NCBI GenBank assembly: GCA_020047755.1
Contig: JAIFNL010000280.1
Coordinates: 1-36,417, forward strand
Source: Bacteroidota bacterium
GTDB lineage: Bacteria; Bacteroidota; Bacteroidia; Bacteroidales; JAIFNL01
DNA length: 36,417 nucleotides
Direction of reading: 5' to 3'
Shown: positions 1 to 12,708 of the stretch, piece by piece
Numbering within the stretch: the first letter of the stretch is position 1
Layout: each line of letters starts with the position of its first letter
The notes under the pieces: model-generated
What the model saw: only the letters and a program-made list of their open reading frames with translations
Database searches by the model: none
What the model was told of the DNA's origin: nothing
Position numbers and translations under genes: made by a program

Positions 1-138
1 AGCCCAATCGAGCATAGGACCAAAAAGATCGAGCGCATTATCAGGAATAGAACGACCACCTAAAAACATCTCTCCCTTTATTGGGTCAAGAATAATATTT
101 GGGCTTTTACTCGATTGCTTCAATTCGTATTTTTGCAT
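1..138 (-). CDS. SiaC-like DUF1987 protein, N-terminal 46 residues (partial)
   Basis: The minus strand reads from an ATG at 138 into the window edge, so only the N-terminus is seen. The start is MQKYELKQSSKSPNI, followed by ILDPIKGEMFLGGRSIPDNA and then a segment reading LDLFGPMLDW. This matches the opening of the DUF1987/SiaC family (a short segment that binds the substrate-like element, then the GRSxPENA motif). SiaC proteins are small phosphoproteins that are controlled by a SiaB-type kinase and a PP2C phosphatase and that set c-di-GMP or biofilm signalling in Pseudomonas. Their role in Bacteroidota is less clear. A possible -7 box TACATTTG lies at 215-208. The partner genes, if present, are outside the window. 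Family assignment rests on a short N-terminal stretch. Confidence 0.7.
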   Translation of the reverse strand, partial: MQKYELKQSSKSPNIILDPIKGEMFLGGRSIPDNALDLFGPMLDWA

Positions 139-207
139 TTTTTTATTTTTTTTATTCTTTCTAAATTAAAAACTTGGTATTTTATTCAAAAAAGAATCCA
201 ATTTTTA

Positions 208-215
208 CAAATGTA
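208..215 (-). promoter_or_regulatory. Putative -7 box for the SiaC-like gene
   Basis: TACATTTG on the minus strand fits the Bacteroidota -7 consensus TAnnTTTG, about 70 bases before the ATG. The nearest upstream TTTG is 25 bases away, longer than the usual 17-23, so only the -7 element is supported. Confidence 0.35.
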
Positions 216-700
216 AATATACATACTTTTTTTAATTATTCAAAAAGTTTATCAATTATACACTTTTTTTTTAATAATCAGATTTTATTTAACTCTAAAA
301 AATAATCTGTATTTTTTAACGAAATAAGCTGATTTTAAAGACAATAAAAACAGATACAACAAAGTAGGTTTAATTCTATACCAACTTACTATTCAGACAA
401 TTAGCCTTAATTTTATCGATGTTCAAAATTTTAATTTAATACAAAATTAATTTGAACTTTTATTTTTTTCAAAATAGAAAACCCACTTTTATATTTTATT
501 TTTGACCTACAAAGATAAAAAAAACTATCCAAACTCTAAATTTTTTTTGAATTATTAACCTTTTGTTTTAAGAAAAAGCAAAAAATAGTAAATAGTATCT
601 GACAGAAAGCGCACCGTTTTTCGTTTTTAGCCCGCTTTTAACCTTTGTAAATGACAAATAGCGATAGAAAAAGAAATTCATAAATATTCAATATTTTTTT

Positions 701-708
701 TAGATTTG
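701..708 (+). promoter_or_regulatory. Putative -7 box for the dipeptidase gene
   Basis: TAGATTTG matches TAnnTTTG 22 bases before the ATG at 731, which would give a short 5' untranslated region. No matching TTG/TTTG is seen at the expected upstream spacing. Confidence 0.35.
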
Positions 709-730
709 CAAAAAAAATAAACTCAAAAAT

Positions 731-1993
731 ATGCAAAACAGACGAAATTTTCTCAAAACGAGTGTTATAGCTGGAATAGGATTGGTGCTATCTCCTACCT
801 TACTTGGCGAAAATCTACAACTATCAGCCGAAAATGACGATAAAATAAAACAAAAAGCAGCCAAAATACACAAACGTATTTTCAAACTCGACTCGCACTG
901 CGATACTCCCTTGCAGTTAATACGCACTGATTTTCAGATAAATCAATCCCACGATGGGTTAAAAACTCACAGTTGCGTAGATTTTCCTCGCATGACTCAA
1001 GGCGATATGAACGCCATGTTTTGGGCTGTTTTTGTAGGACAAAGCGAGCGTTCCGAAGCCGGAAATGAAAAAGTAATAGCCAAAGCAAAACAAATTTTCG
1101 ATGCCATTCACAAAACAATAGCCGAAAATTCGCAAGTTGCCGAAATTGCAATAAGTTCAACCGATGGAATAGAAATAGCTAAAAAAGGCAAACATGCAAT
1201 CTACATTGGCGTAGAAAATGGCTATGCCATAGGAAATAACCTCAACTTGCTAGAAGAATATTACAAAAAAGGCGCTCGCTATATAACACTTTGCCACAGT
1301 GCAAACAACGATATTTGCGACTCATCGAGCGATAAAAATGGCGCAGAACATAATGGCGTAAGCGAATTTGGCAAAAAAGTAATTGCCGAAATGAATCGGC
1401 TTGGAATATTAATCGATGTATCGCATATTTCAGACAAAGCGTTTTACGATGCCATCCAACTATCTAAAACACCGATAGTTGCGACACACTCGTGTGCACG
1501 CGCCTTGTGCGACCACCCACGCAACATGACCGATGACATGATAAAAGAGTTGGCAAAAAACGGTGGCGTTATTCAAATGTGCATTTTGAGCGACTATGTA
1601 AAAACGCCCGAACCTTTCCCCGAAAGAGATGCAGCCAAACAGAAAGTGCGCGATAAATACAACAATTTCAAGGATTTAACCGACCAAGAAATGGCTGAAG
1701 CCTCAAAAGCTTGGTATGCGATAAACGACGAATTTCCGCCAAAATTAGCTACAGTAAAAGATGTAGTAAACCATATCGACCACATAGTTAAACTTGTGGG
1801 AATAAACCATATAGGCATTGGAACCGATTTCGATGGCGGCGGTGGAGTAGCTGATTGCTACGATGTTAGCCAAATTGGTAACATCACAGAAGAGCTCGTG
1901 CGACGTGGTTACTCCGAAAAAGAAATTCGCAAAATTTGGGGAGAAAATTTTCTACGAGTAATGCAAAAAACAGAAGCCTTTGCTGCAAAATAG
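731..1993 (+). CDS. Membrane dipeptidase, peptidase family M19, Tat-exported
   Basis: A 420-residue zinc dipeptidase of the renal-dipeptidase family (M19), which cleaves dipeptides including L-D or D-amino-acid forms. The N-terminus (residues 1-26) has RRNFLK followed by a hydrophobic stretch, a twin-arginine signal, so the enzyme should be folded and metal-loaded before export. The family's binuclear zinc ligands are all visible: H56 and D58 in the HxD motif, E162 in GVENG, H232 in DVSH and H253 in ATHS. The substrate-contacting DHPRN segment follows at 261-265, and GTDFDG near residue 366 is the C-terminal signature. It is transcribed alone; the next gene converges on it. Substrate (peptidoglycan fragments or scavenged peptides) cannot be told from sequence. 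Confidence 0.92.
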   Translation: MQNRRNFLKTSVIAGIGLVLSPTLLGENLQLSAENDDKIKQKAAKIHKRIFKLDSHCDTPLQLIRTDFQINQSHDGLKTHSCVDFPRMTQGDMNAMFWAVFVGQSERSEAGNEKVIAKAKQIFDAIHKTIAENSQVAEIAISSTDGIEIAKKGKHAIYIGVENGYAIGNNLNLLEEYYKKGARYITLCHSANNDICDSSSDKNGAEHNGVSEFGKKVIAEMNRLGILIDVSHISDKAFYDAIQLSKTPIVATHSCARALCDHPRNMTDDMIKELAKNGGVIQMCILSDYVKTPEPFPERDAAKQKVRDKYNNFKDLTDQEMAEASKAWYAINDEFPPKLATVKDVVNHIDHIVKLVGINHIGIGTDFDGGGGVADCYDVSQIGNITEELVRRGYSEKEIRKIWGENFLRVMQKTEAFAAK

Positions 1994-2036
1994 TATCAAT
2001 CAACAATAGACTTGTTGTAAACTGAATTTCAATATT

Positions 2037-2127
2037 TTACCACAAAGAAACATTTTTTTTTGCACAAAGAACACAACGAGTTTAACACTTAGTGTTCTTT
2101 GTGTTCTTCTTTGTGTCTTTGTGGTAA
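2037..2127. repeat. Long interrupted inverted repeat of the CACAAAGA type between convergent genes
   Basis: The outer arms TTACCACAAAGAAACA (2037-2052) and TGTGTCTTTGTGGTAA (2112-2127) pair over 15 of 16 positions. The inner arms CACAAAGAACAC (2063-2074) and GTGTTCTTTGTG (2092-2103) pair perfectly around a 17-nt loop. Both arms are copies of one ACCACAAAGACACAAAGAACAC-like unit in opposite orientation, with a T-run interrupting the left copy. It lies between the stops of two convergent genes and could act as a bidirectional terminator. I know similar CACAAAGA units as scattered intergenic sequences in many Bacteroidota genomes, but that is recall, not a search. Confidence 0.75.
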
Positions 2128-2174
2128 CTCTATTTTTTCGATTATACCGCTTAATTAATCTAATTTACTGAATA

Positions 2175-3224
2175 TCAATTTGCATCAAGCCCAATATAAT
2201 CAGTTAATTCTTCCGCCGAAAGGATGCCATACTCGGTAATGTAACCTGTAATGTACTGAGCAGGAGTTACGTCAAATGCCGGATTTATTGCCATAGAATT
2301 GGGCGAAGCTATCAAAATTTCGCGCCAAATGCCTTCTTTATCAAAGCCACTTTGATAAAGAACTTCGCGCTCGCTTCTAAATTCGATAGGTATTTCTTTG
2401 CCCGATTTACAACTAAAATCGATTGTAGAAATAGGCGCAGCTACATAAAACGGAATACCAAATTCATAAGCCACAATCGCTTTTTCGAGCGTTCCAATTT
2501 TGTTGGCAGTATCACCATTTATTGCAATTCTGTCAGCACCAACTATATACATATCAATTTCGCCACGCTGCATAAAAAAAGCAGCAGCATTGTCAACAAT
2601 AATTCGGTGTGGCACGCTTTCTTGCTGCAATTCCCAAGCAGTAAGGCGTGCTCCCTGCCCACGCGGGCGAGTTTCATCTACATACACAAACGGTTTTTTG
2701 CCCAAATTTTTAGCTTCATAAATAGGTGAAAGAGCGCTGCCATAATCGGTAAAAGCCAACCAACCCGCATTGCAATGTGTTGCAATACACATATTTGAAG
2801 TAATAATTGAATTTCCATTAATTCCTATTTTCCGACAAGCATCAACATCGCGTTGTGCAAAATTTTGAGCCGCATGATAAGCCTTTTCTGGCGATTCTAA
2901 AGCCGCTTTGAAAACAAAATTAGTAGCCGAAAAAAGATTTTGAGCTGTTGGGCGTGTATTTTCAATTGCCTTTTTAGCAAATTCTATTTCTTGCAAATAG
3001 CTTTTTTTAGAGGCTTTCAAAGCAGCCTGAGCAAGTGCAAAGCCCGCTGCACTTCCTATAGCTCCAGCACCTCTAACTATCATATTATTAATAGCTTCAC
3101 AACTTTCTTGCAAAGAATTTAAGCTTACAATTTCAAATTTAAAAGGCAACAAATTTTGATTTATCATGTAAATTGTTTGTTGCTCCATCGAAACTGTTCG
3201 ATAATGCTTTCCGTTTACTTTCAT
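2175..3224 (-). CDS. mtnA: S-methyl-5-thioribose-1-phosphate isomerase
   Basis: A 349-residue aldose-ketose isomerase of the methionine salvage pathway, converting 5-methylthioribose-1-phosphate to methylthioribulose-1-phosphate. It belongs to the eIF2B-like fold. Visible motifs: VRGAGAIGSAA at 50-60, the catalytic cysteine C151 in THCNAG, DETRPRGQGARLTAWEL at 183-199, and the catalytic aspartate D231 in GADRIAINGDTANKIGT. Length is normal for MtnA. The start at 3224 gives the usual short N-terminal strand. No other methionine-salvage gene is next to it. It is 249 bases downstream of the aromatic operon in the same direction, with a terminator-like inverted repeat between them, so separate transcription is more likely. 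The homologous ribose-1,5-bisphosphate isomerase is possible, but the motif set fits MtnA better. Confidence 0.92.
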   Translation of the reverse strand: MKVNGKHYRTVSMEQQTIYMINQNLLPFKFEIVSLNSLQESCEAINNMIVRGAGAIGSAAGFALAQAALKASKKSYLQEIEFAKKAIENTRPTAQNLFSATNFVFKAALESPEKAYHAAQNFAQRDVDACRKIGINGNSIITSNMCIATHCNAGWLAFTDYGSALSPIYEAKNLGKKPFVYVDETRPRGQGARLTAWELQQESVPHRIIVDNAAAFFMQRGEIDMYIVGADRIAINGDTANKIGTLEKAIVAYEFGIPFYVAAPISTIDFSCKSGKEIPIEFRSEREVLYQSGFDKEGIWREILIASPNSMAINPAFDVTPAQYITGYITEYGILSAEELTDYIGLDAN

Positions 3225-3397
3225 TTAGTAATTGCTCGTAAAATAATATGCGTTTTTTTATAAAAATTATAAAATTTAATTAAAAGACAAAAAATTAAAC
3301 AAAACAATAAAATTGTCTTGCTTAAAAATTTAATAATATATAAAAATAGCAATTTTTAATAAAAATTAGCTATAATTATAAAAAATAATAATAAAAA

Positions 3398-3472
3398 TTT
3401 TGATAGCGTAAGACTAATAATTTAAAAATATTCAAAATTATATTTTCAACTATCAAGTTACGCTACCCAAAA
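3398..3472 (-). terminator. Inverted repeat right after the DAHP synthase stop, possible operon terminator
   Basis: TTTTGATAGCGTAA (3398-3411) pairs with TTACGCTACCCAAAA (3458-3472) with one small mismatch or bulge, enclosing an AT-rich loop of about 46 bases. It starts one base after the stop codon at 3474. Read on the minus strand, the distal arm is followed by a T-rich tract (TTTTTATTATTATTTTTTA). The loop is long for an intrinsic terminator, so function is uncertain. Confidence 0.45.
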
Positions 3473-3473
3473 T

Positions 3474-4562
3474 TTACGCATTCATTATATCCGTTTGTAT
3501 TCTAATCGATTCTTGGTGAACAAGTTGCAACATTCGTTTCATAAAGCTATTGCTCAATCCCATGGCTTCGCCAAGTGCAACACGCTGATTTAGAATTTGT
3601 TCCCAACGATTCATCTGCAAAATAGTAACTTCGTTGTCGCGCTTGTACTGACCTATTTTAGCCGCCACATTCATACGCGCCGAAATAATTTTGATAATAT
3701 CATTGTCGTATTGGTCAATTTCTAACCGCAGTTTTTCTAATTGAGTTTTGAAAGCAGGATTGTCGCCTTCGTGTTTTCTCAAAACTAACTCTTTGATAAT
3801 TTGCGCTAAAACAGCCGGCGTAACTTGCTGAGCATTGTCGCTCCAAGCAATATCGGGCGTTATGTGCGACTCAATCATCAAACCGTCCATATTTAAGTCA
3901 AGAGCTTTTTGCGAAATAAACGGCACTAATTCTCGTTTTCCTGTAATATGACTTGGGTCTGTAATAATCGGAATTTGAGGACATTGTCTTTTCAATTCAA
4001 TGGGAATATCCCACATAGGCGAATTGCGGAAAACTTTTTCATCGTAGTTGGAAAAACCTCTATGAATTGCACCCAATTTTTTCACTCCAGCTCTATTAAT
4101 ACGCTCCAGAGCTCCTATCCAAAGCTGAAAATCTGGGTTTAATGGATTTTTAACCAATACCGTAATGTCCGTTCCACGCAAAGCATCAGCCACTTCTTGA
4201 ATAGAAAATGGATTGGTAGAAGTTCGTGCTCCTATCCAAATCATATCTAATCCGGCTTCTAAACACAACTCAACATGCTCAGCTTTAGCTACTTCCGTTG
4301 AAATTTTCAAACCAGTAACTTCGCGCACTTTTTTGAGCCATTCCAAGCCCTTCGCTCCTACTCCTTCAAAAGCTCCCGGGCGGGTTCTTGGTTTCCACAA
4401 ACCTGCTCTGAAATAGCTAACTTTGCCTGTTTCAGCTAATTGAATAGCAGTACTAAGCATCTGTTGCTCGCTTTCGGCGCTGCAAGGTCCAGAAATTAAA
4501 ATAGGCCATTTTGCATTTTGCAAATTATTATCGATATTCTCAATTTTTAAGTCTAATCCCAT
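3474..4562 (-). CDS. Bifunctional DAHP synthase / chorismate mutase (type II)
   Basis: A 362-residue fusion combining the first step of the shikimate pathway (phosphoenolpyruvate plus erythrose-4-phosphate to DAHP) with the chorismate-to-prephenate step. Residues about 10-260 form the KDO8P-synthase-like DAHP synthase barrel: ISGPCSAES at 23-31 with the metal-binding cysteine C27, KPRTRP at 57-62, and IITDPSHITGKR further on. Residues about 268-362 are an AroQ-type helical chorismate mutase (LRLEIDQYDNDIIKIISARM, then KIGQYKRD). In such fusions the mutase domain usually also acts as the sensor for feedback inhibition by prephenate or its products. It is the last gene of the pheA-aat-tyrA operon, after a 212-base gap. 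A perfect small hairpin, AATTGATT-AAA-AATCAATT (4578-4596), lies just before its ATG. No aromatic-rich leader was found in that gap. Confidence 0.93.
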   Translation of the reverse strand: MGLDLKIENIDNNLQNAKWPILISGPCSAESEQQMLSTAIQLAETGKVSYFRAGLWKPRTRPGAFEGVGAKGLEWLKKVREVTGLKISTEVAKAEHVELCLEAGLDMIWIGARTSTNPFSIQEVADALRGTDITVLVKNPLNPDFQLWIGALERINRAGVKKLGAIHRGFSNYDEKVFRNSPMWDIPIELKRQCPQIPIITDPSHITGKRELVPFISQKALDLNMDGLMIESHITPDIAWSDNAQQVTPAVLAQIIKELVLRKHEGDNPAFKTQLEKLRLEIDQYDNDIIKIISARMNVAAKIGQYKRDNEVTILQMNRWEQILNQRVALGEAMGLSNSFMKRMLQLVHQESIRIQTDIMNA

Positions 4563-4774
4563 CTTTTTTATTTTAATAATTGATTAAAAATCAATTTAGT
4601 TATATTTTATTATAGTTAATTTTCCTTTATTAAAAAGCATCTATTCATTGTTCTACATAAAAATCTAAAATTCAATATTTTATAATTGTCATGATAAAAT
4701 AACAATAGAACAATTTAAAATTTATCAAATTATAATTTAGAATTTAAGCTATTAGCAATTTAATTATCTGCTAT

Positions 4775-5614
4775 TTACGATTTAATAATTCTACCTATTT
4801 TGTTTGCTTCTTTCATCAAATCAAACAATTTAGCTGTTTCTCCATTTTCCATACTCTCCTTAAACTCGGTAAGTCGCTTAATGTAAGCAGCTAACGCATT
4901 ACTCAAGTGTACTTTATTTTGCATAAAAATAGGATTCCACATTTCTGGAGAACTCTTTGCTAATCTGACAGTTGAAGCAAAACCGCTACCGGCAAGGTCA
5001 AGTATATTTTTTTCATTTTTCTCGATGTCCAAAACAGTAAGTCCTAAGGTAAACGACGAAATATGAGAAAGATGCGAAACATAAGCTACATGTAAGTCAT
5101 GCTCATCAGGTTTCATATATACTACTTTCATATTCAATAGTTTATACATCTCCTCCACCATCTTGAGAGCAAAATCAGCACTTAATTCTTTTTCGCAAAT
5201 AATAGTTGTCTTTCCATTAAAAAGAGAACTAAATGCTGCTTTAGGTCCACTATATTCTGTACCTGCAATGGGGTGAGAAGCAACATAATTTGCTCTTTTT
5301 GAATGATTTCGCACGTTTTGGCAGATTCCCGATTTTGTAGAACCCATATCCACCACAACAGCTTTAGAGGGAATTAAATCCAAAATAAGCGATAACGTAT
5401 TACGAGCCGCATCAACCGGAATAGCCAAAATTATTAAATCAGCAATTTTCACAGCTTCTTCGAGGTTCAAAACTACATCTATAATTCCAAGTTCCAAAGC
5501 CATTTGACAATGCTCTGGGCTTTTATCAACTCCTATCATGTGAGTTTGAAATCCTCTGAGTGCCAAAGCTAAAGAGCCGCCTATTAAACCTAAACCTACT
5601 ACTGTTATATTCAT
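4775..5614 (-). CDS. tyrA: Prephenate dehydrogenase
   Basis: A 279-residue NAD(P)-dependent dehydrogenase converting prephenate to 4-hydroxyphenylpyruvate in tyrosine synthesis. The N-terminal Rossmann motif GLGLIGGS is at residues 7-14. The catalytic-histidine motif SHPIAGTEYSGP follows in mid-protein, and HDLHVAYVSHLSH marks the start of the helical dimerisation domain. There is no C-terminal ACT domain, so feedback must act elsewhere, for example on the DAHP synthase/mutase or by attenuation. It lies third in the aromatic operon, 70 bases after the aminotransferase gene. Specificity between prephenate and arogenate cannot be read from sequence, but the neighbouring pheA and chorismate mutase favour prephenate. 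Confidence 0.92.
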   Translation of the reverse strand: MNITVVGLGLIGGSLALALRGFQTHMIGVDKSPEHCQMALELGIIDVVLNLEEAVKIADLIILAIPVDAARNTLSLILDLIPSKAVVVDMGSTKSGICQNVRNHSKRANYVASHPIAGTEYSGPKAAFSSLFNGKTTIICEKELSADFALKMVEEMYKLLNMKVVYMKPDEHDLHVAYVSHLSHISSFTLGLTVLDIEKNEKNILDLAGSGFASTVRLAKSSPEMWNPIFMQNKVHLSNALAAYIKRLTEFKESMENGETAKLFDLMKEANKIGRIIKS

Positions 5615-5684
5615 TTTACAAAAATTTATCTTTTTTTTTATATGAAACTTTAAAATTACTCAAAATTTATAGTTAAATATAATT

Positions 5685-6854
5685 TTACTTTTTAGCAAAA
5701 AATGTTTCAATTCGTTGTTTTGCTTGCCTAAAAACTTCTGGTTTTGAGGTAAGCGAAATGCGAACAAAACGTTCACCATTTGAGCCAAAAATAAATCCCG
5801 GTGTAATAAAAACTCCGGCATTTTGAAGTAACTGCTCAACTAAAATTTCAGAGCTCGAAATATTATCGGGTAGTTTTGCCCAAATAAACAAACCCGATTG
5901 GTTTTCAGAGTATTTGCAATTTAATAAATCAAAAATTTCGAAAACCAATGCACGGCGTTGTGCATAAATTTCATTATTTTGCCGCACCAGTGAGTCTGAG
6001 TTTGCAAGTGCTTCAGCAGCCGCTTTTTGCAAAGGCAAAAACATTCCTGAATCCATATTACTTTTGAATTTGAGGATAGTAGAAATGTAATCGCTTGCGC
6101 CTGAAACCCAGCCAATTCGCCAGCCTGCCATGTTGTGCGATTTACTGAGCGAATTTAATTCGAGAGCAACTTCTTTTGCGCCTTCGTAAACCAAAATACT
6201 TTTAGGCTTTCCGTTCAAAATAAGGCTATATGGGTTGTCATTTACTATCAAAAAATGATGTTTTTTTGCCAATTCAATTAATTTAATATAACTTTCGTCG
6301 GCAATAGTAGCTCCCGTAGGCATGTGCGGATAATTTATCCACATTATTTTAACTTTGTCTAAATCAGATTTTTCGAGTTCTTCAAAGTCAATATCCCAAT
6401 TTTTGTCTTCTCTCAAGTTGTAGTAACAGATTTGTGCTCCTGCCAAATTACTAACCGAAGTGTAAGTTGGATAACCCGGATTGGGCACTAAAACAAGGTC
6501 GCCAGTATTTAAAAACGACATGGAAATGTGCATTATCCCTTCTTTTGAGCCCATCAAAGGAAGTATTTCGGTGGCAAAATCAAGTTCTACTGCATACGTT
6601 TTTTTATAGAAATTAGCTATTTCTTTGCGCAAAAAATCTGTACCTTTGTAGCTTTGATATGCGTGTGAATTTTCCTGCAATGAACTCAAATACAATTCTT
6701 TAATTATATTTTCGGAAGGCATCAAGTCGGGACTCCCAATTCCAAGATTAATTATGTTTTTACCTTCGGCATTGAGTTTTGCTATTTCTTGAAGTTTTAT
6801 CGAAAAATAATATTCCGACACAAAATTAAGTTTTTCTGCTTGTTTTATTATCAT
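5685..6854 (-). CDS. PLP-dependent class I/II aminotransferase of the aromatic operon
   Basis: A fold-type I aminotransferase of about 389 residues. The start was placed at the ATG at 6854 (MIIKQAEKLNF); the frame is open to a TTG at 6866, four codons earlier, which is less likely. Numbered from 6854, the PLP-binding lysine is about K238 in SLSKSHNMAGWRIGW. NDNPYS is about 205-210 and NYPHMPTG about 174-181, a variant of the usual NYPNNPTG. Its place between pheA and tyrA suggests it transaminates phenylpyruvate and 4-hydroxyphenylpyruvate to Phe and Tyr. By sequence alone it also resembles LL-diaminopimelate or aspartate-type aminotransferases, so specificity is inferred from context. It lies 35 bases after pheA and is very likely cotranscribed. 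Confidence 0.88.
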   Translation of the reverse strand: MIIKQAEKLNFVSEYYFSIKLQEIAKLNAEGKNIINLGIGSPDLMPSENIIKELYLSSLQENSHAYQSYKGTDFLRKEIANFYKKTYAVELDFATEILPLMGSKEGIMHISMSFLNTGDLVLVPNPGYPTYTSVSNLAGAQICYYNLREDKNWDIDFEELEKSDLDKVKIMWINYPHMPTGATIADESYIKLIELAKKHHFLIVNDNPYSLILNGKPKSILVYEGAKEVALELNSLSKSHNMAGWRIGWVSGASDYISTILKFKSNMDSGMFLPLQKAAAEALANSDSLVRQNNEIYAQRRALVFEIFDLLNCKYSENQSGLFIWAKLPDNISSSEILVEQLLQNAGVFITPGFIFGSNGERFVRISLTSKPEVFRQAKQRIETFFAKK

Positions 6855-6889
6855 GACTTTTTTCAAAGAATTAATATTTTTTTATAATT

Positions 6890-7744
6890 TTACTCATTAA
6901 GTTTAAAGGTTGCCGATTGATGGAAAGCACCTTTTTCGTATTCGCCCAAAATGGAAAGTGTGGCGACAGATTTGAGAATATAATGTATTGCCTTTTCGTA
7001 ATTTGCATTATTTTTCCACTCCAAATCTACATAAAACGAGTATTCATAAGGCTTTCCGAGGATTGGAACAGATTGTATCTTGGTCATATTAATTTCATAA
7101 TCCTTCATAATAAGCAAAACATCAGCCAATGCACCAACTTGATGCCGCAACTCGAAGCAAATGGAAGCTTTATTTACGGGTTGCAAAGTTTCTGCATTTT
7201 TGCTCAAAATAAGAAAACGGGTAAAATTACGCTTGTTCGTTTCAATTCCTCTATCTAAAATTTGCATGTCATAAATTTCTGCAGAATAAGCACTTGCTAT
7301 TGCAGCAGTATTCATTAACCCTTTTTCGAGAATATGTTTAGCCGATTCGGCAGTGTCGGCAGTTTGTATAACCTTCACATTTTCAAATCGTTCTAAATAA
7401 TCCTCGCATTGTTTTAAGGCAATGGGGTGCGAATGAATTATTTCTATATCACTGTGTTTCACGCCTTTATTTACTATCAAACTCATTTCGATGTGCAAAT
7501 AAATTTCGCCTATAATTTTAAAATTGTATTCTTTAAGAAGAGCATAATTGGTTAATAAACTTCCTGCAATCGTATTTTCGATAGCCATTACTGCAAAATC
7601 AGCTTCGTCGATAGCTAGTTTTTCGCAAAGTAATTTGAATGAATCGCATTCGATGGTTTTAATATTTTTACCAAAATATTTATAAGCAGCCATTTCATGA
7701 AAAGACCCAACTACTCCTTGTATTGCAATTTTTTTTGGTTTCAT
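6890..7744 (-). CDS. pheA: Prephenate dehydratase with C-terminal ACT domain
   Basis: A 284-residue monofunctional prephenate dehydratase producing phenylpyruvate. The periplasmic-binding-like catalytic lobes cover residues 1-180 (IQGVVGSFHEMAA near the start, AIENTIAGS at 54-62) and carry the catalytic T-R-F motif at 175-177 in KRNFTRFLIL. Residues about 195-275 form an ACT domain with GALADVL at 204-210. The second ACT motif, usually ESRP in Phe-regulated enzymes, reads QSVP here (224-227); similar forms occur in other Bacteroidota as far as I recall. It is the first structural gene after the attenuator-like leader, with about 100 untranslated bases between the terminator tract and the ATG. 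Confidence 0.94.
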   Translation of the reverse strand: MKPKKIAIQGVVGSFHEMAAYKYFGKNIKTIECDSFKLLCEKLAIDEADFAVMAIENTIAGSLLTNYALLKEYNFKIIGEIYLHIEMSLIVNKGVKHSDIEIIHSHPIALKQCEDYLERFENVKVIQTADTAESAKHILEKGLMNTAAIASAYSAEIYDMQILDRGIETNKRNFTRFLILSKNAETLQPVNKASICFELRHQVGALADVLLIMKDYEINMTKIQSVPILGKPYEYSFYVDLEWKNNANYEKAIHYILKSVATLSILGEYEKGAFHQSATFKLNE

Positions 7745-7845
7745 TTTTTATTTCTTAAATTTTAATAATACAATTTTATACTATAATTTTGATAAAGTGC
7801 GTGGATTATGCGCAATTTTAAATTTTAATCTTTTTACGATTGTGC

Positions 7846-7884
7846 AAAAAATAAAAAAAAAATCTCGGCTTAGAACCGAGATTT
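7846..7884 (-). terminator. Intrinsic terminator in the pheA operon leader (attenuator terminator)
   Basis: On the minus strand the stem is AAATCTCGG (7884-7876), loop TTCTAAG, and CCGAGATTT (7868-7860): nine perfect base pairs. It is followed at once by seven further Ts, one A and six Ts (7859-7846). It lies 29 bases after the leader-peptide stop codon and 102 bases before pheA. A strong intrinsic terminator between a promoter-bearing leader and the first gene of an operon is the hallmark of premature termination control. It could also simply end transcripts from the upstream receptor gene, whose stop is 263 bases away. Confidence 0.9.
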
Positions 7885-7924
7885 AAAATTTCTTTATACA
7901 ATAGATTTTCTATCAATCCCGGTT
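7874..7924 (-). promoter_or_regulatory. Putative antiterminator structure of the pheA operon
   Basis: The segment AACCGGGATT (7924-7915) covers the last three codons of the leader ORF plus the first base of its stop. It can pair along all 10 positions, with one G-U pair, with AATCTCGGTT (7883-7874), which is the 5' arm of the terminator plus two loop bases. The pairing excludes the terminator. The 31-base loop holds a small hairpin, ATAGA-AAA-TCTAT (7913-7901), that would draw the two arms together. A ribosome at the leader stop would cover the first arm and let the terminator form; one stalled in the Phe/Tyr run would leave it free. Structure is deduced by hand pairing. Confidence 0.75.
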
Positions 7925-7975
7925 TTTCAGTATTGTCCAAAAAAAATAGAAAAAATAGTTAGAGAAAAAGTTCAT
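7913..7975 (-). CDS. Aromatic-rich leader peptide of the pheA operon (20 residues)
   Basis: An ATG at 7975 opens a 20-codon frame, MNFFSNYFFYFFWTILKNRD, ending at TGA (7915-7913). Residues 3-13 hold 6 Phe, 2 Tyr and 1 Trp in 11 positions. The last Phe codon ends 15 bases before the antiterminator arm, so a ribosome stalled there would leave the arm exposed; one at the stop would mask it. The following genes make Phe and Tyr. Poly-T DNA gives Phe codons by chance in AT-rich genomes, so the composition alone is weak evidence. The fit with the two alternative RNA structures is what supports it. Promoter-like boxes lie at 8003-7996 and 8082-8075. Confidence 0.78.
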   Translation of the reverse strand: MNFFSNYFFYFFWTILKNRD

Positions 7976-7995
7976 ATATTAATTTTGCTTTTATT

Positions 7996-8003
7996 CAAAA
8001 ATA
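7996..8003 (-). promoter_or_regulatory. Putative -7 box for the leader and pheA operon (proximal)
   Basis: TATTTTTG on the minus strand matches TAnnTTTG and would start transcription about 10-15 bases before the leader ATG. No clear TTG/TTTG is present at the upstream position. An alternative exact match, TACGTTTG, lies at 8082-8075, so the start site is unsettled. Confidence 0.35.
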
Positions 8004-8074
8004 AATTTCTAATTATTAGTAAAAAAGAATTACATATTAGAAATATAGATGCTTTAAAAATTAAAATCTGAAAG

Positions 8075-8082
8075 CAAACGTA
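8075..8082 (-). promoter_or_regulatory. Putative -7 box for the leader and pheA operon (distal)
   Basis: TACGTTTG on the minus strand is an exact TAnnTTTG match 65 bases after the receptor-gene stop codon and about 100 bases before the leader ATG. It has no well-spaced -33 partner. Confidence 0.35.
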
Positions 8083-8146
8083 CAAATAAAGTTTCAATTT
8101 ATAAAATAAAATGAAGAGAAATTTTAATATTTAACAATTTCTTTAC

Positions 8147-10099
8147 TTATTTGATTTCTTCTTCTTTTATCGAAAATACCATAACCCTCTCAAAATCACC
8201 ATATTCGTTGCGTTTCGGGATATAACTTTCAAGCATTTTATAAATATTTTCGCCATGCGTATAAATGCGTTTACCACTTCTACGAATGCCTTTTGAGAAA
8301 TCGTCGAAACTTTCCATAAAAGTCTTCAATTCTTTTTCAGAAGGAATAACAATACTTACATTTGAGTGAATCATATCGTAAGATTCTAACTCAAACAGCT
8401 CTGCAAAATAATCGTTTACATAAGTTATATTTCCTTCAAAATCAAGCTCATAAACGCCAATATAATCATTAATTTGGTCGAGCTGGTTTTGTAATTCTCT
8501 CAGTTTTCTGTGCGATTCTTCTTGCGTTGCTTGAAGTTCTTCAAGATTTTGCCGCATTTCTTCTTCTTGCTGAATAAGTTGCTCGCCTTGCATTTTCGAT
8601 TCTTCGAGCAAACGGGCTGTTCGCGTGTTAATTTTAACGCTCGAAATGGTTGTAGCGATGCTTTCTGCTACTTTTTCAGTAAATTCGATGAGGTATTTTT
8701 CAAATTTATAGAACGATGCAATTTCGACCACGCCATATACATTGTCGTTTACCATAAGTGGCACGATAAGCAAATATCGCGGGTTTGCTTTTCCTAATCC
8801 TGAGGTTACGTGCAAATAAGAATCGGGAATTTCGGTCATGTAAATGGTATGTTTTTCGACGTAACAAGTACCAATAAGCCCTTCGCCATAACGAATAATT
8901 CTATCAGCAAATTTGCGACGATCGTAAGCGTAAGAAGCCGTCATGTGCAATTCAATGTCTTTGGCATTGTAGCTATTTTCGTTTTCGATAATAAAAACTC
9001 CTCCTTGATTTGCATTGAGATATTTTACCAGATTACTTATTATGTCGTAAGAGAGTTCGTTAATATTGTCGTTGTTTTTTCTTAAAATATCACCAAACAT
9101 AGCCAATCCACGCGTTCCCCAATTTCGTTGGTCGTCTTCTTTTTTTCTAATACTTTCATTTCTATTTGCATCTTTTAGGTTTGTGCGCATATCAATCAAA
9201 GCATTTCCCAAAATGTCGCTTTCACCAAGTGGCTCAAAATCAGTTTGAAAATTTCCCGTTCCTATTTCTTTGGCAAATTCAGATGTTCGTTTGAGAGCCA
9301 AAACATGTTCGTTTAGGGCTTCTGTCATTTCGCCGATTTCATCGTTGCGTTTATGCTCGTTGATGGGAGGCAAAATACCTTTCGACATATCTAAAAGAGT
9401 GAATTTTAGCCTATTAATTGGATTAACTATGCTTTTTATTGTAAGAAAAGCAATTGTAAATCCTAAAAGAATTACAAAAATGCGTGATATTTCTAAATCC
9501 TTCGACAAAGCATCAAAGGCTTCTATCATAGCAATATTACTTTCTTTAGATTTTTTTTGCGAATCTTTGAGCAACATACCAAGTTGCATCAAAATCTTAT
9601 CAGTCAGAATAATAACTTCTCCTTCTTCTTCAACCAACATCGAATTGGTCATCATTTTGGTATCATCATTATAATCTTCAAAGTTTTTCAAATCGTTCAT
9701 GATTTTTGTGTGAAAAACAAAAAGACTGTCCTCGATAAGTTTTGTAATTTGTGTGTATTTTTCAACCTCGGCAGGTTCCCATTTAGAGGAAAGCGTATCA
9801 AGTGCTTCTTTGACATCGTAATAATTTAAAGATAAATCTTTTAACTCTCGCTTGCCAGTTGTATTGTCGAGTTTATCAATCAAAACCCAGTTTTTGATTA
9901 ACATTTTAGAATTGTTAATCAACACATACAAGTTGTTTATATTATAAAACGAAGGTGCTGTTACGTTAATCAAATCTTCTGTTATTTTTTTATTTTTGCG
10001 TAATGTACTATATATCATTATGCCTGTAAGTAACACAAGTGATAAAATAATAACATAGCCTAAGGCTAATTTTTTTGCAAGAGTAATCTTCAATTTCAT
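8147..10099 (-). CDS. Membrane receptor with HAMP, GAF and PAS domains and no output domain
   Basis: A 650-residue protein with a membrane segment at about 12-32, an extracytoplasmic helical region (33-200) of four-helix-bundle sensor type, and a second membrane segment at about 205-225. A HAMP domain (226-280) and a second HAMP-like stretch (about 280-325) follow. Then come a GAF domain (about 345-500), a coiled coil with QQEEEMRQNLEELQATQEE near 520, and a PAS domain (about 555-645). The chain ends directly after PAS. There is no HisKA/HATPase, GGDEF, EAL or SpoIIE domain, and no frameshift is visible downstream. It must signal through a partner, or the PAS/GAF part may scaffold another protein. 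It follows the YfiR-like gene after 122 bases in the same direction. Confidence 0.82.
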   Translation of the reverse strand: MKLKITLAKKLALGYVIILSLVLLTGIMIYSTLRKNKKITEDLINVTAPSFYNINNLYVLINNSKMLIKNWVLIDKLDNTTGKRELKDLSLNYYDVKEALDTLSSKWEPAEVEKYTQITKLIEDSLFVFHTKIMNDLKNFEDYNDDTKMMTNSMLVEEEGEVIILTDKILMQLGMLLKDSQKKSKESNIAMIEAFDALSKDLEISRIFVILLGFTIAFLTIKSIVNPINRLKFTLLDMSKGILPPINEHKRNDEIGEMTEALNEHVLALKRTSEFAKEIGTGNFQTDFEPLGESDILGNALIDMRTNLKDANRNESIRKKEDDQRNWGTRGLAMFGDILRKNNDNINELSYDIISNLVKYLNANQGGVFIIENENSYNAKDIELHMTASYAYDRRKFADRIIRYGEGLIGTCYVEKHTIYMTEIPDSYLHVTSGLGKANPRYLLIVPLMVNDNVYGVVEIASFYKFEKYLIEFTEKVAESIATTISSVKINTRTARLLEESKMQGEQLIQQEEEMRQNLEELQATQEESHRKLRELQNQLDQINDYIGVYELDFEGNITYVNDYFAELFELESYDMIHSNVSIVIPSEKELKTFMESFDDFSKGIRRSGKRIYTHGENIYKMLESYIPKRNEYGDFERVMVFSIKEEEIK

Positions 10100-10221
10100 G
10101 CTTTTATTTTTTATTTATAGCTCTTCAAATATCAAAAAAATTATAACTAAATAATTTAGACTATCAATTTTATACTAAAAAAATAGAATATAATTTAGTC
10201 TTTTTTTCCGTAACACAAACA

Positions 10222-10755
10222 CTAATTAACGACTCGGCTAGCCATCTGATTACTAAGCGTATTGTTTACGTTCAAACTTCTATTTTCGGTTTCTTTCATA
10301 TTCAACTCAAACCCAATTTTTCCAGTTGCTGTTTGCACAAAATTGATGCAAGCACCATCGTTAATAAGTCCGTTTTTTTCTGTAATAATCAAAATGCTTT
10401 TGCCCTGAACAGCATTCATAACTTTTGGCAATAAATTGCTACTTGCTGTTGGAATATACAAAATATGACATTTTGTAATATGCTCAACCATAGGATATTC
10501 CCTTATTTCAATTTGTTGGTCGCCGCAAAGTTTAGCATTGAGCATTTTTTTCAGCTCAGGCGTTATTTTATCATCTCCAAGTACAGCAATAATAAAATTT
10601 CCGGTTTTGTATGATGTAGGCCAGTTGATATATTTTGTAAAATTATAAATCAACAAGGTCTTCAATTTGTTATTACTGCTTTCATCTTGCCCAATAACTC
10701 TGTGAAAACTAAGGAAAATGATAAAAAAAAGTATAACGTATTTAGTTTTTCTCAT
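10222..10755 (-). CDS. YfiR/DUF4154-family periplasmic protein
   Basis: About 177 residues from the ATG at 10755, which gives a standard signal peptide (MRKTKYVILFFIIFLSF, cleavage near IGQ). An earlier ATG at 10782 would add nine residues and weaken the signal. The mature part matches the YfiR family: LLIYNFTKYINWP after the signal, CHILYIP in the middle, and the late motifs ILIITEKNGLINDGACINF, then KIGFELN and the NNTLSNQMAS end. In Pseudomonas YfiR is a periplasmic redox-sensitive repressor of the membrane diguanylate cyclase YfiN. Here the gene precedes a HAMP-containing receptor without GGDEF, so a YfiR-receptor pair with a different output is an inference from synteny. Confidence 0.82.
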   Translation of the reverse strand: MRKTKYVILFFIIFLSFHRVIGQDESSNNKLKTLLIYNFTKYINWPTSYKTGNFIIAVLGDDKITPELKKMLNAKLCGDQQIEIREYPMVEHITKCHILYIPTASSNLLPKVMNAVQGKSILIITEKNGLINDGACINFVQTATGKIGFELNMKETENRSLNVNNTLSNQMASRVVN

Positions 10756-10913
10756 ATCAATTAAATTGCTTAAGCATGTCATTGACTATGCTCAAATGCC
10801 TGAATTTATAGAAATAAACTATTTCCTAAACTAAAATATACATCAAGAATTTCTTCTTAATTTTAGATAATTTCATCGTGTTTCTAAAATTATTTTTTTC
10901 AATAAAAAAATAG

Positions 10914-11120
10914 CTAAAGTTTGCTATCGATTGATTCCATTGTATTTTCGATTGCTGGAGGCAAATCTATGTTAAAATGGTACAATAAATAAAACGTTGC
11001 AAGAACAACAACTACCAAAAGTACTATTCTAATTAACGTTTTGACTACAAATTTTGTAATTAAATAAGCTAAAATTAAGCCTATTCCTACTATAACTATA
11101 TTATTGCTTAACATTTCCAT
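10914..11120 (-). CDS. Small hydrophobic membrane protein, function unknown
   Basis: A 68-residue protein with a hydrophobic stretch at about 8-25, a short positively charged turn (TKFVVKTLIR), a second hydrophobic segment at about 30-48, and an acidic C-terminal tail ending MESIDSKL. A two-helix hairpin membrane protein is likely. A -7-like box TATATTTG lies at 11196-11189, 69 bases or more before the ATG. I do not recognise the family. It stands alone between the YfiR-like gene (same strand) and mnmA (opposite strand). Confidence 0.6.
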   Translation of the reverse strand: MEMLSNNIVIVGIGLILAYLITKFVVKTLIRIVLLVVVVLATFYLLYHFNIDLPPAIENTMESIDSKL

Positions 11121-11188
11121 ATTTAACTTACTATAAATTAACTAATTAAATTACGTAAAATTGTTTTTTATGCTCAAAAACGAATTTT

Positions 11189-11196
11189 CAAATATA
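11189..11196 (-). promoter_or_regulatory. Putative -7 box for the small membrane protein gene
   Basis: TATATTTG on the minus strand fits TAnnTTTG. No TTG at acceptable spacing was found upstream. Confidence 0.35.
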
Positions 11197-11435
11197 CTAA
11201 AAAAATTGATAATATAAATAATATGCAAGTTAAAAAAATAAACTTAAAACAAAAAATGGATTCCTTTTGTTTTAAAGTTTAAGTGCCTAAAATAAAGAGA
11301 ATAAAAAAAGGACAAAAGTATCTAAAATATTGATTGATAAAACTTTAAATTTTAAAAACGATAAAAAATATAAATCATAAATTATATTTTTTGAAAAAAA
11401 TAGAAAAAAAAGTAGCTCGGATAGATAGAATTGAG

Positions 11436-11443
11436 TAATTTTG
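11436..11443 (+). promoter_or_regulatory. mnmA: Putative -7 box for mnmA
   Basis: TAATTTTG fits TAnnTTTG. It would start transcription near 11450, just before the upstream ORF at 11465 and about 65 bases before the mnmA ATG. The -33 element is not clear. Confidence 0.35.
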
Positions 11444-11464
11444 CGACATAAAAAAATCAAAATA

Positions 11465-11527
11465 ATGAAACTTTTCATTTTGTTAGAAGTTTACATAACC
11501 GAATATTTTCAAGAATGGCAAAAGTAG
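11465..11527 (+). CDS. Possible upstream ORF overlapping the mnmA start (20 residues)
   Basis: ATG at 11465 to TAG at 11525-11527 encodes [20 protein letters not shown] in a frame different from mnmA and overlaps the first 13 bases of mnmA. The stop-start overlap would allow translational coupling. Codons GAA (three), CAA (two) and AAA/AAG (two) are read by the very tRNAs (Glu, Gln, Lys) that MnmA thiolates, and five of these seven codons lie in the last eight sense codons. Such codons are common in this genome, so this may be chance. Confidence 0.3.
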
Positions 11528-12708
11528 TAATTGGCTTATCTGGAGGCGTTGATTCAAGCGTGGCTGCCCACGTTCTAAAGCAAGAAGGGCACGAAGTAAT
11601 TGCGCTTTTTATGATTAATTGGCACGATAAAAGTGTAACATTATCAAGCAATTGCTCATGGAGCGATGATTTAATCTATGCCGAATTAGTTGCTCGACGG
11701 TTAAATATTCCCTTTCACACAGTCGATTTGAGCGAAGAATATAAAAAGCGCGTGGTTGATTATATGTTCTCGGAATATGAAAAAGGAAGGACTCCAAACC
11801 CCGATGTGCTTTGCAACCGAGAAGTAAAATTTGATGTTTTCATGGAAAAAGCTCTTGAACTTGGTGCCGAATTTGTTGCAACAGGGCATTATGCACGCAA
11901 AGAAACGATAGAAGTAAATGGTAAAAAAACGTATCGCTTGCTTGCTGGAACTGACCAAAACAAGGATCAATCATACTTTTTGTGCCAACTTTCGCAGTGG
12001 CAATTAGAAAAAGCCCTTTTTCCGATAGGCGATATTGTAAAGCCAGAAGTAAGGCGAATTGCTGCCGAGTTAAAATTGGCTTCTGCCGAAAAGAAAGATT
12101 CGCAAGGTATTTGTTTTGTAGGCAAAGTTGATTTACCAGTTTTTTTACAACAAAAACTAAAACCAAAAGAGGGAAATATTATTGAAATAGACAAAAATTA
12201 CTATTCTGAAAAAATTAATATTCAACTGAATAAGAAATTTTCGTCGTGCGAACTTAAAACGCTTACCGTTGATTATATTTATATGCCCAAAGATGGACAA
12301 ATAGTTGGTAAACATAATGGTGCTCACTATTTTACAATAGGTCAACGCAAAGGTTTAGGTGTGGGCGGAAAAGTTGAGCCGCTTTTTGTGATAGCTACTA
12401 ATGTAGAGCAAAATGTGGTTTATGTAGGTCAAGGTCAAGAACATAGCGGTCTTTACCGAACAGGTTTATTTATTGACCAAAGCGAGCTTCACTGGGTTCG
12501 TCCAGATTTTGAAATGAAAGAAGATGATAATCAAGAATTTATGGTACGTATTCGTTATCGGCAACCACTTCAAAAAGCCAAGCTTTTTAGAAAAAACGAA
12601 GGCATGTATATTTTATTTGAAGAACCACAACGTGGCATTGCAGCAGGGCAATTTGCTGCATGGTACAAAGAAGACGAACTTATAGGCTCAGGTGTAATCA
12701 ACAGCTAA
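11515..12708 (+). CDS. mnmA: tRNA-specific 2-thiouridylase MnmA
   Basis: A 397-residue ATP-pyrophosphatase that thiolates U34 of tRNA-Glu, -Gln and -Lys using sulfur relayed from a cysteine desulfurase. The PP-loop SGGVDSS is at 9-15. The catalytic cysteine pair is C100 (TPNPDVLCN) and C200 (DSQGICFVG). GHYAR (124-128), DQSYFLCQL (151-159) and [15 protein letters not shown] are the other family motifs. The C-terminal beta-barrel carries VRIRYRQ and ends with [11 protein letters not shown]. It is about 30 residues longer than the E. coli enzyme, mostly from an insert around residues 205-265. The start at [11 protein letters not shown] is fixed by the PP-loop position. Confidence 0.95.

Follow-up and report, generated by a model that had tools for sequence, protein, structure and literature searches.

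The window analysed in this study is a 36,417-nt stretch of DNA from a member of the Bacteroidota (contig JAIFNL010000280.1, positions 1 to 36,417). Four genes lie on its minus strand, all downstream of a short leader: pheA, encoding prephenate dehydratase (6890..7744; PF00800, E 7.3e-56), a gene for a class I/II aminotransferase (5685..6866; PF00155), tyrA, encoding prephenate dehydrogenase (4775..5614; NF006307, above its cut-off), and a gene for a DAHP synthase with a C-terminal chorismate mutase (3474..4562; PF00793 and PF01817). The leader, its arms and the gene order are all retained in two relatives from the same genus, both metagenome assemblies with isolate names beginning SulCav. Upstream of the leader, the same strand carries a gene for a HAMP-GAF-PAS protein (8147-10099), in which the Pfam search showed no kinase domain and which keeps its position in both genus relatives.

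The leader ORF (7913..7975, minus strand) has 20 codons, MNFFSNYFFYFFWTILKNRD, running from an ATG at 7975-7973 to a TGA stop at 7915-7913. Nine of the 11 residues from 3 to 13 (the control codons, 7937..7969, minus strand) are aromatic, comprising 6 Phe, 2 Tyr and 1 Trp, and 2000 dinucleotide shuffles of the region upstream of pheA in the window yielded no ATG ORF in which 12 codons held 9 aromatic residues. The predicted antiterminator arm AACCGGGATT (arm B; 7915..7924, minus strand) overlaps the end of the leader coding sequence and the initial base of its stop codon, and lies 12 nt from the end of Trp13, the last control codon. Arm B and AATCTCGGTT, part of the terminator 5' arm, form a 10-position duplex of -13.1 kcal/mol that includes one G-U pair, and the leader ends of other genomes offer the window's terminator 5' arm no better partner than its own. 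The intrinsic terminator (7860..7884, minus strand), AAATCTCGGTT-CTA-AGCCGAGATTT, is composed of a 5' arm (arm C, 7884-7874), the loop CTA and a 3' arm (arm D, 7870-7860); its 11 pairs consist of 9 uninterrupted Watson-Crick pairs, then U-G and U-A, followed by a T tract extending to about 7846. In a scan of positions 1-12000 of the window, this site ranked first among terminator-like sites. Direct reading therefore confirmed three claims of an earlier note on this DNA, namely the 20-codon aromatic ORF with its coordinates and composition, the 10-position pairing of the arms (with one G-U pair) and a perfect 9-bp terminator with a T tract (within 11 pairs).

The regions upstream of pheA were compared at 170 loci, 109 from the same order (110 genomes, 109 of which could be judged) and 61 from elsewhere in the class and phylum, where a locus was considered to have an aromatic leader if it contained an ORF with at least 7 Phe, Tyr or Trp in 12 codons. 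Such leaders were found at 97 of the 109 same-order loci, compared to approximately 1 of 109 after shuffling (93 compared to 0.9 when only ATG starts were counted), and at 42 of the 61 further loci; a strict scan detected a terminator for 84 of the 97 same-order leaders. The aromatic codons, whose fate in relatives the earlier note had suggested following, are thus kept despite sequence drift. Within the phylum, a few leaders were found outside the class Bacteroidia (L159, L162, L170), and none at 20 loci from deep phylum lineages with divergent pheA, a distribution that makes the element mainly a trait of that class. Among the minority of loci without the leader are L005, L006, L007, L011, L113, L118-L121, L126, L128, L131 and L150-L152, some of which (L005-L007 and L011) have a pheA closely related to that of the window. 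At L005 and L007, a tblastn search of 1.5 kb on either side identified none of the remaining genes of the operon, and loss of the attenuator may accompany break-up of the operon.

Within the control window, 75% of in-frame residues are Phe, Tyr or Trp, with 0.8% Leu and 0.5% Ile, while the other two frames contain 24-25% aromatic residues, 11-45% Leu and 7-18% Ile. Phe and Tyr are each written with either of their codons (TTT 378, TTC 140, TAT 192, TAC 157), and Phe and Tyr replace one another at residues 4 and 8 within the genus. Judging from the frame comparison and the synonymous interchange, it is the amino acids, not the U tract, that are under selection. The mixture of Phe, Tyr and Trp codons described in the earlier note holds in part: Phe and Tyr are both present in 138 of 139 leaders, whereas Trp appears in 43 of 139 and is therefore optional, leaving Phe and Tyr as the conserved signals. 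Leaders mixing these two residues fit an operon that makes both amino acids and feeds all three pathways. In the genus of the window, the attenuator perhaps senses tRNA-Trp as well.

Since the arms are highly variable in sequence and share mainly their pairing and spacing, pairing was scored directly, by energies; percentages of paired bases in these duplexes presuppose pairing, and the test lies in the swapped and shuffled energies. At 122 loci where a terminator lies close to a leader, the stretch downstream of the last aromatic codon was paired with the terminator 5' arm, with a mean of -12.83 kcal/mol within genomes, compared to -8.62 kcal/mol when arms were swapped between genomes, an exchange that leaves relatedness and genome composition uncontrolled; the observed value was reached in none of 5000 permutations. 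Double changes are frequent in the arm pairs, with one column containing CG 22, AT 21, GC 20 and TA 11, and, given the size of the effect and the number of these changes, relatedness and composition are insufficient to explain the matching. The covariation check proposed in the earlier note was thus borne out.

The spacing of the leader can be expressed as a ribosome ruler, counted from where the last aromatic codon ends to where arm B begins to pair. Among the 109 loci with a duplex of -9 or better, its median is 11 nt, and it falls between 6 and 16 nt at 104 loci, compared to 24% of shuffled leaders. The distance from the stop codon to the arm is far looser (-31 to +6 in the same-order set, one outlier aside). 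The footprint of a ribosome extends approximately 10-11 nt past the codon in its A site; with a median ruler of 11 nt, the arm would therefore be free while the ribosome awaits the last Phe, Tyr or Trp, and covered when it stands at the stop codon. Folding constrained by a ribosome on the last aromatic codon yielded the antiterminator at 98 of these 109 loci, and folding constrained by one at the stop codon yielded the terminator at 107; for the window, the constrained folds were -12.7 kcal/mol (antiterminator) and -12.4 kcal/mol (terminator). In equilibrium folding, the terminator still forms at 95 of the 109 loci when the antiterminator arm is free, and because the terminator is favored at equilibrium, the choice between the two must be made kinetically, as it is in attenuators already known.

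Two further structures were considered as conserved parts of the element and rejected. In a 1:2 protector hairpin between leader and antiterminator arm, a locus's own pairing exceeds swapped pairing, yet it exceeds that of shuffled leaders at just 55 of 109 loci, so composition explains it. For a hairpin between the arms, the mean fold was -2.3 kcal/mol compared to -1.7 kcal/mol in shuffles, a weak difference with little signal outside the genus. The small AU-rich hairpin that the earlier note placed between the arms of the window (7901..7913, minus strand; ATAGA-AAA-TCTAT) is present there and visible in the two genus relatives; it has only one G-C pair and scant conservation beyond the genus.

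A candidate promoter element precedes the leader. The sequence TATTTTTG (7996..8003, minus strand), 28 nt before the leader ATG, matches TAnnTTTG, the consensus of the Bacteroidota sigma-A -7 box (PMC9723704). Across the 97 same-order loci with leaders, this motif occurs 64 times in the 20-40 nt bin before the leader ATG, where approximately 1.4 occurrences are expected, and in the same-order loci it is nearly absent before pheA itself. No matching -33 box is evident by TATTTTTG in the window. The position of the motif supports a transcription start upstream of the leader ORF.

An ORF rich in codons for the end products, an intrinsic terminator and a mutually exclusive antiterminator, three features of ribosome-mediated attenuators, are all found ahead of pheA. 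The element is very probably a ribosome-mediated transcription attenuator of the classical type, with charged tRNA-Phe and tRNA-Tyr as the signals it senses, and the ribosome-stalling reading given in the earlier note is supported by the retention of aromatic codons, the covariation of the arms, the lack of a matching Rfam family, the position of the start-site motif, the spacing and the constrained folds. Comparison among genomes shows the leader with its arms, their alternative pairing and spacing, the motif at the start site and how widely the element is spread, and stalling, termination and the response to amino acids would follow by analogy with the mechanism in Proteobacteria. Transcription would begin just upstream of the leader. 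When Phe and Tyr are sufficient, the ribosome would reach the stop codon and mask the antiterminator arm, so that the terminator folds and transcription ends before pheA. When either amino acid is short, the ribosome would stall in the aromatic run with its leading edge just short of the antiterminator arm; the free arm could then pair with the emerging terminator 5' arm, and the antiterminator so formed would allow RNA polymerase to read into pheA, the aminotransferase gene, tyrA and the DAHP synthase/chorismate mutase gene.

There are several alternative explanations for these features. The region is AT-rich, so that T-rich runs and Phe codons are cheap, and it follows a gene on the same strand (8147-10099); runs of six TWY codons number 280 in the genome compared to 217 for the reversed pattern; chance could therefore have placed an aromatic ORF in a T-rich intergenic region beside the ordinary terminator of the upstream gene. 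However, shuffling failed to reproduce either the ORF or the whole cassette (the latter in none of 1700 shuffled upstream regions), and the element recurs with drift at approximately 140 loci with covarying arms. Chance is refuted by these comparative sequence data and retains a negligible probability. It is also conceivable, though very unlikely, that the leader is a real short ORF and that a protein, riboswitch or T-box acts on the same terminator, since a terminator by itself would suit any antitermination system. For a riboswitch or T-box, however, there was no Rfam match at the gathering threshold and a permissive search returned only sub-threshold, chance-level matches, and the spacing of 6-16 nt at 104 of 109 loci is predicted by the ribosome ruler but by none of the other proposals.

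Translation of the leader might instead serve to boost that of pheA by ribosome reinitiation, with no attenuation of transcription. Leader ORFs near structural genes are common in Bacteroidetes and have been proposed to act in this way, but the spacing that supports reinitiation there peaks at 11-14 nt (PMC4833913), whereas the leader stop of the window lies 168 nt from pheA with the terminator in between, and this explanation is extremely improbable.

The leader-terminator cassette also occurs in a serial form among the relatives. At 14 of the 170 loci (L020, L022, L024, L042, L044, L045, L057, L059, L087, L092, L097, L106, L110 and L147), representing ten family-level groups, pheA is preceded by two aromatic leaders in a row; each has a terminator to itself, and usually a matching arm as well. 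The window's own locus is a single cassette. Arms are weak in two of the 28 tandem cassettes, the first of L044 (-4.4) and the first of L022 (-8.0). The TAnnTTTG motif is located before the first leader at 8 of the 14 loci and before the second at none. The paired cassettes share little sequence similarity and, by this measure, are not recent duplications. It is likely that dual Phe/Tyr pheA attenuators are widespread and uncatalogued in the Bacteroidia, and that at least ten families stack two complete cassettes behind one promoter, forming a two-step amino-acid gate. We know of no description of peptide attenuators in series, although this was not the subject of a dedicated literature search and is weak evidence of absence. 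The serial cassettes would provide a natural test of how attenuators combine.

Similar elements precede other operons of the same genome. Upstream of hisG (L196, G000:C34), a His-type leader, MIFQLHTIRHHHNLLFEVGG, precedes a terminator and has an arm that pairs at -10.7 kcal/mol. Upstream of trpE (L197, G000:C300), a Trp-type leader, MTNLSLNINWWRFLENKFVKGTKRM, comes with a downstream terminator and a TATATTTG motif; it scores 39.4 bits against Bacteroid-trp RNA (RF01692), near the cut-off of 49, and is probably a divergent member missed by the Rfam threshold. With pheA included, at least three amino-acid operons of this organism thus appear to be under leader-peptide attenuation.

The literature searched says little about amino-acid regulation in the Bacteroidia, and these findings could have several uses. 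The sharp ribosome ruler may make the attenuator usable as a ready reporter of tRNA charging. In addition, because the leader ribosome must keep pace with RNA polymerase, the attenuator offers a direct test of transcription-translation coupling in the Bacteroidota, a phylum in which mRNAs are generally without a Shine-Dalgarno sequence. Leaders that mix Phe and Tyr would also exemplify a single switch tuned to both end products of one operon.

Ribosome-mediated attenuation is a textbook mechanism in Proteobacteria. The E. coli pheA, pheST, trp and his attenuators (Rfam Phe_leader RF01859, Trp_leader RF00513) likewise have a leader peptide rich in control codons, an antiterminator arm near the leader stop, a rho-independent terminator and an operon for the same amino acid. 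Unlike the Phe-only leader of E. coli pheA, however, 138 of the 139 Bacteroidota leaders mix Phe and Tyr codons, and no conserved protector hairpin was found in the pheA leaders of this study. The window's leader is not a member of Phe_leader (20.6 bits, compared to a gathering cut-off of 55), and the Rfam search suggested in the earlier note returned no family at the gathering threshold. Bacteroid-trp RNA (RF01692) is also a peptide-leader attenuator of an aromatic amino-acid operon in this phylum; it differs from the pheA leader in operon, control codons and sequence, and a permissive Rfam search gave no match between the two up to E = 10. Older comparative surveys of attenuation, for example Lopatovskaya 2010 (cited in PMC4833913), may list some Bacteroidetes cases.

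The nearest precedent lies in Flavobacterium psychrophilum, where a transcribed, structured 5' element without an Rfam hit precedes pheA and is conserved in other Flavobacteriaceae, and where leader-peptide attenuation has been proposed for amino-acid operons; for pheA, the main text of that report presents neither a leader sequence nor control codons, and does not analyse arms (PMC9723704). The earlier note could name no described pheA-type attenuator with mixed Phe/Tyr/Trp codons in Bacteroidota; as far as that main text goes, such attenuators are essentially undescribed, with no Rfam family and the F. psychrophilum element as the prior hint. The attenuator examined here shares both gene and phylum with that element and carries the observation into many families of a different order, as well as into further orders of the class, with its mechanism tested by comparison. 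The mechanism is known, while the pheA attenuator family that employs it is essentially undescribed and widespread in the class.
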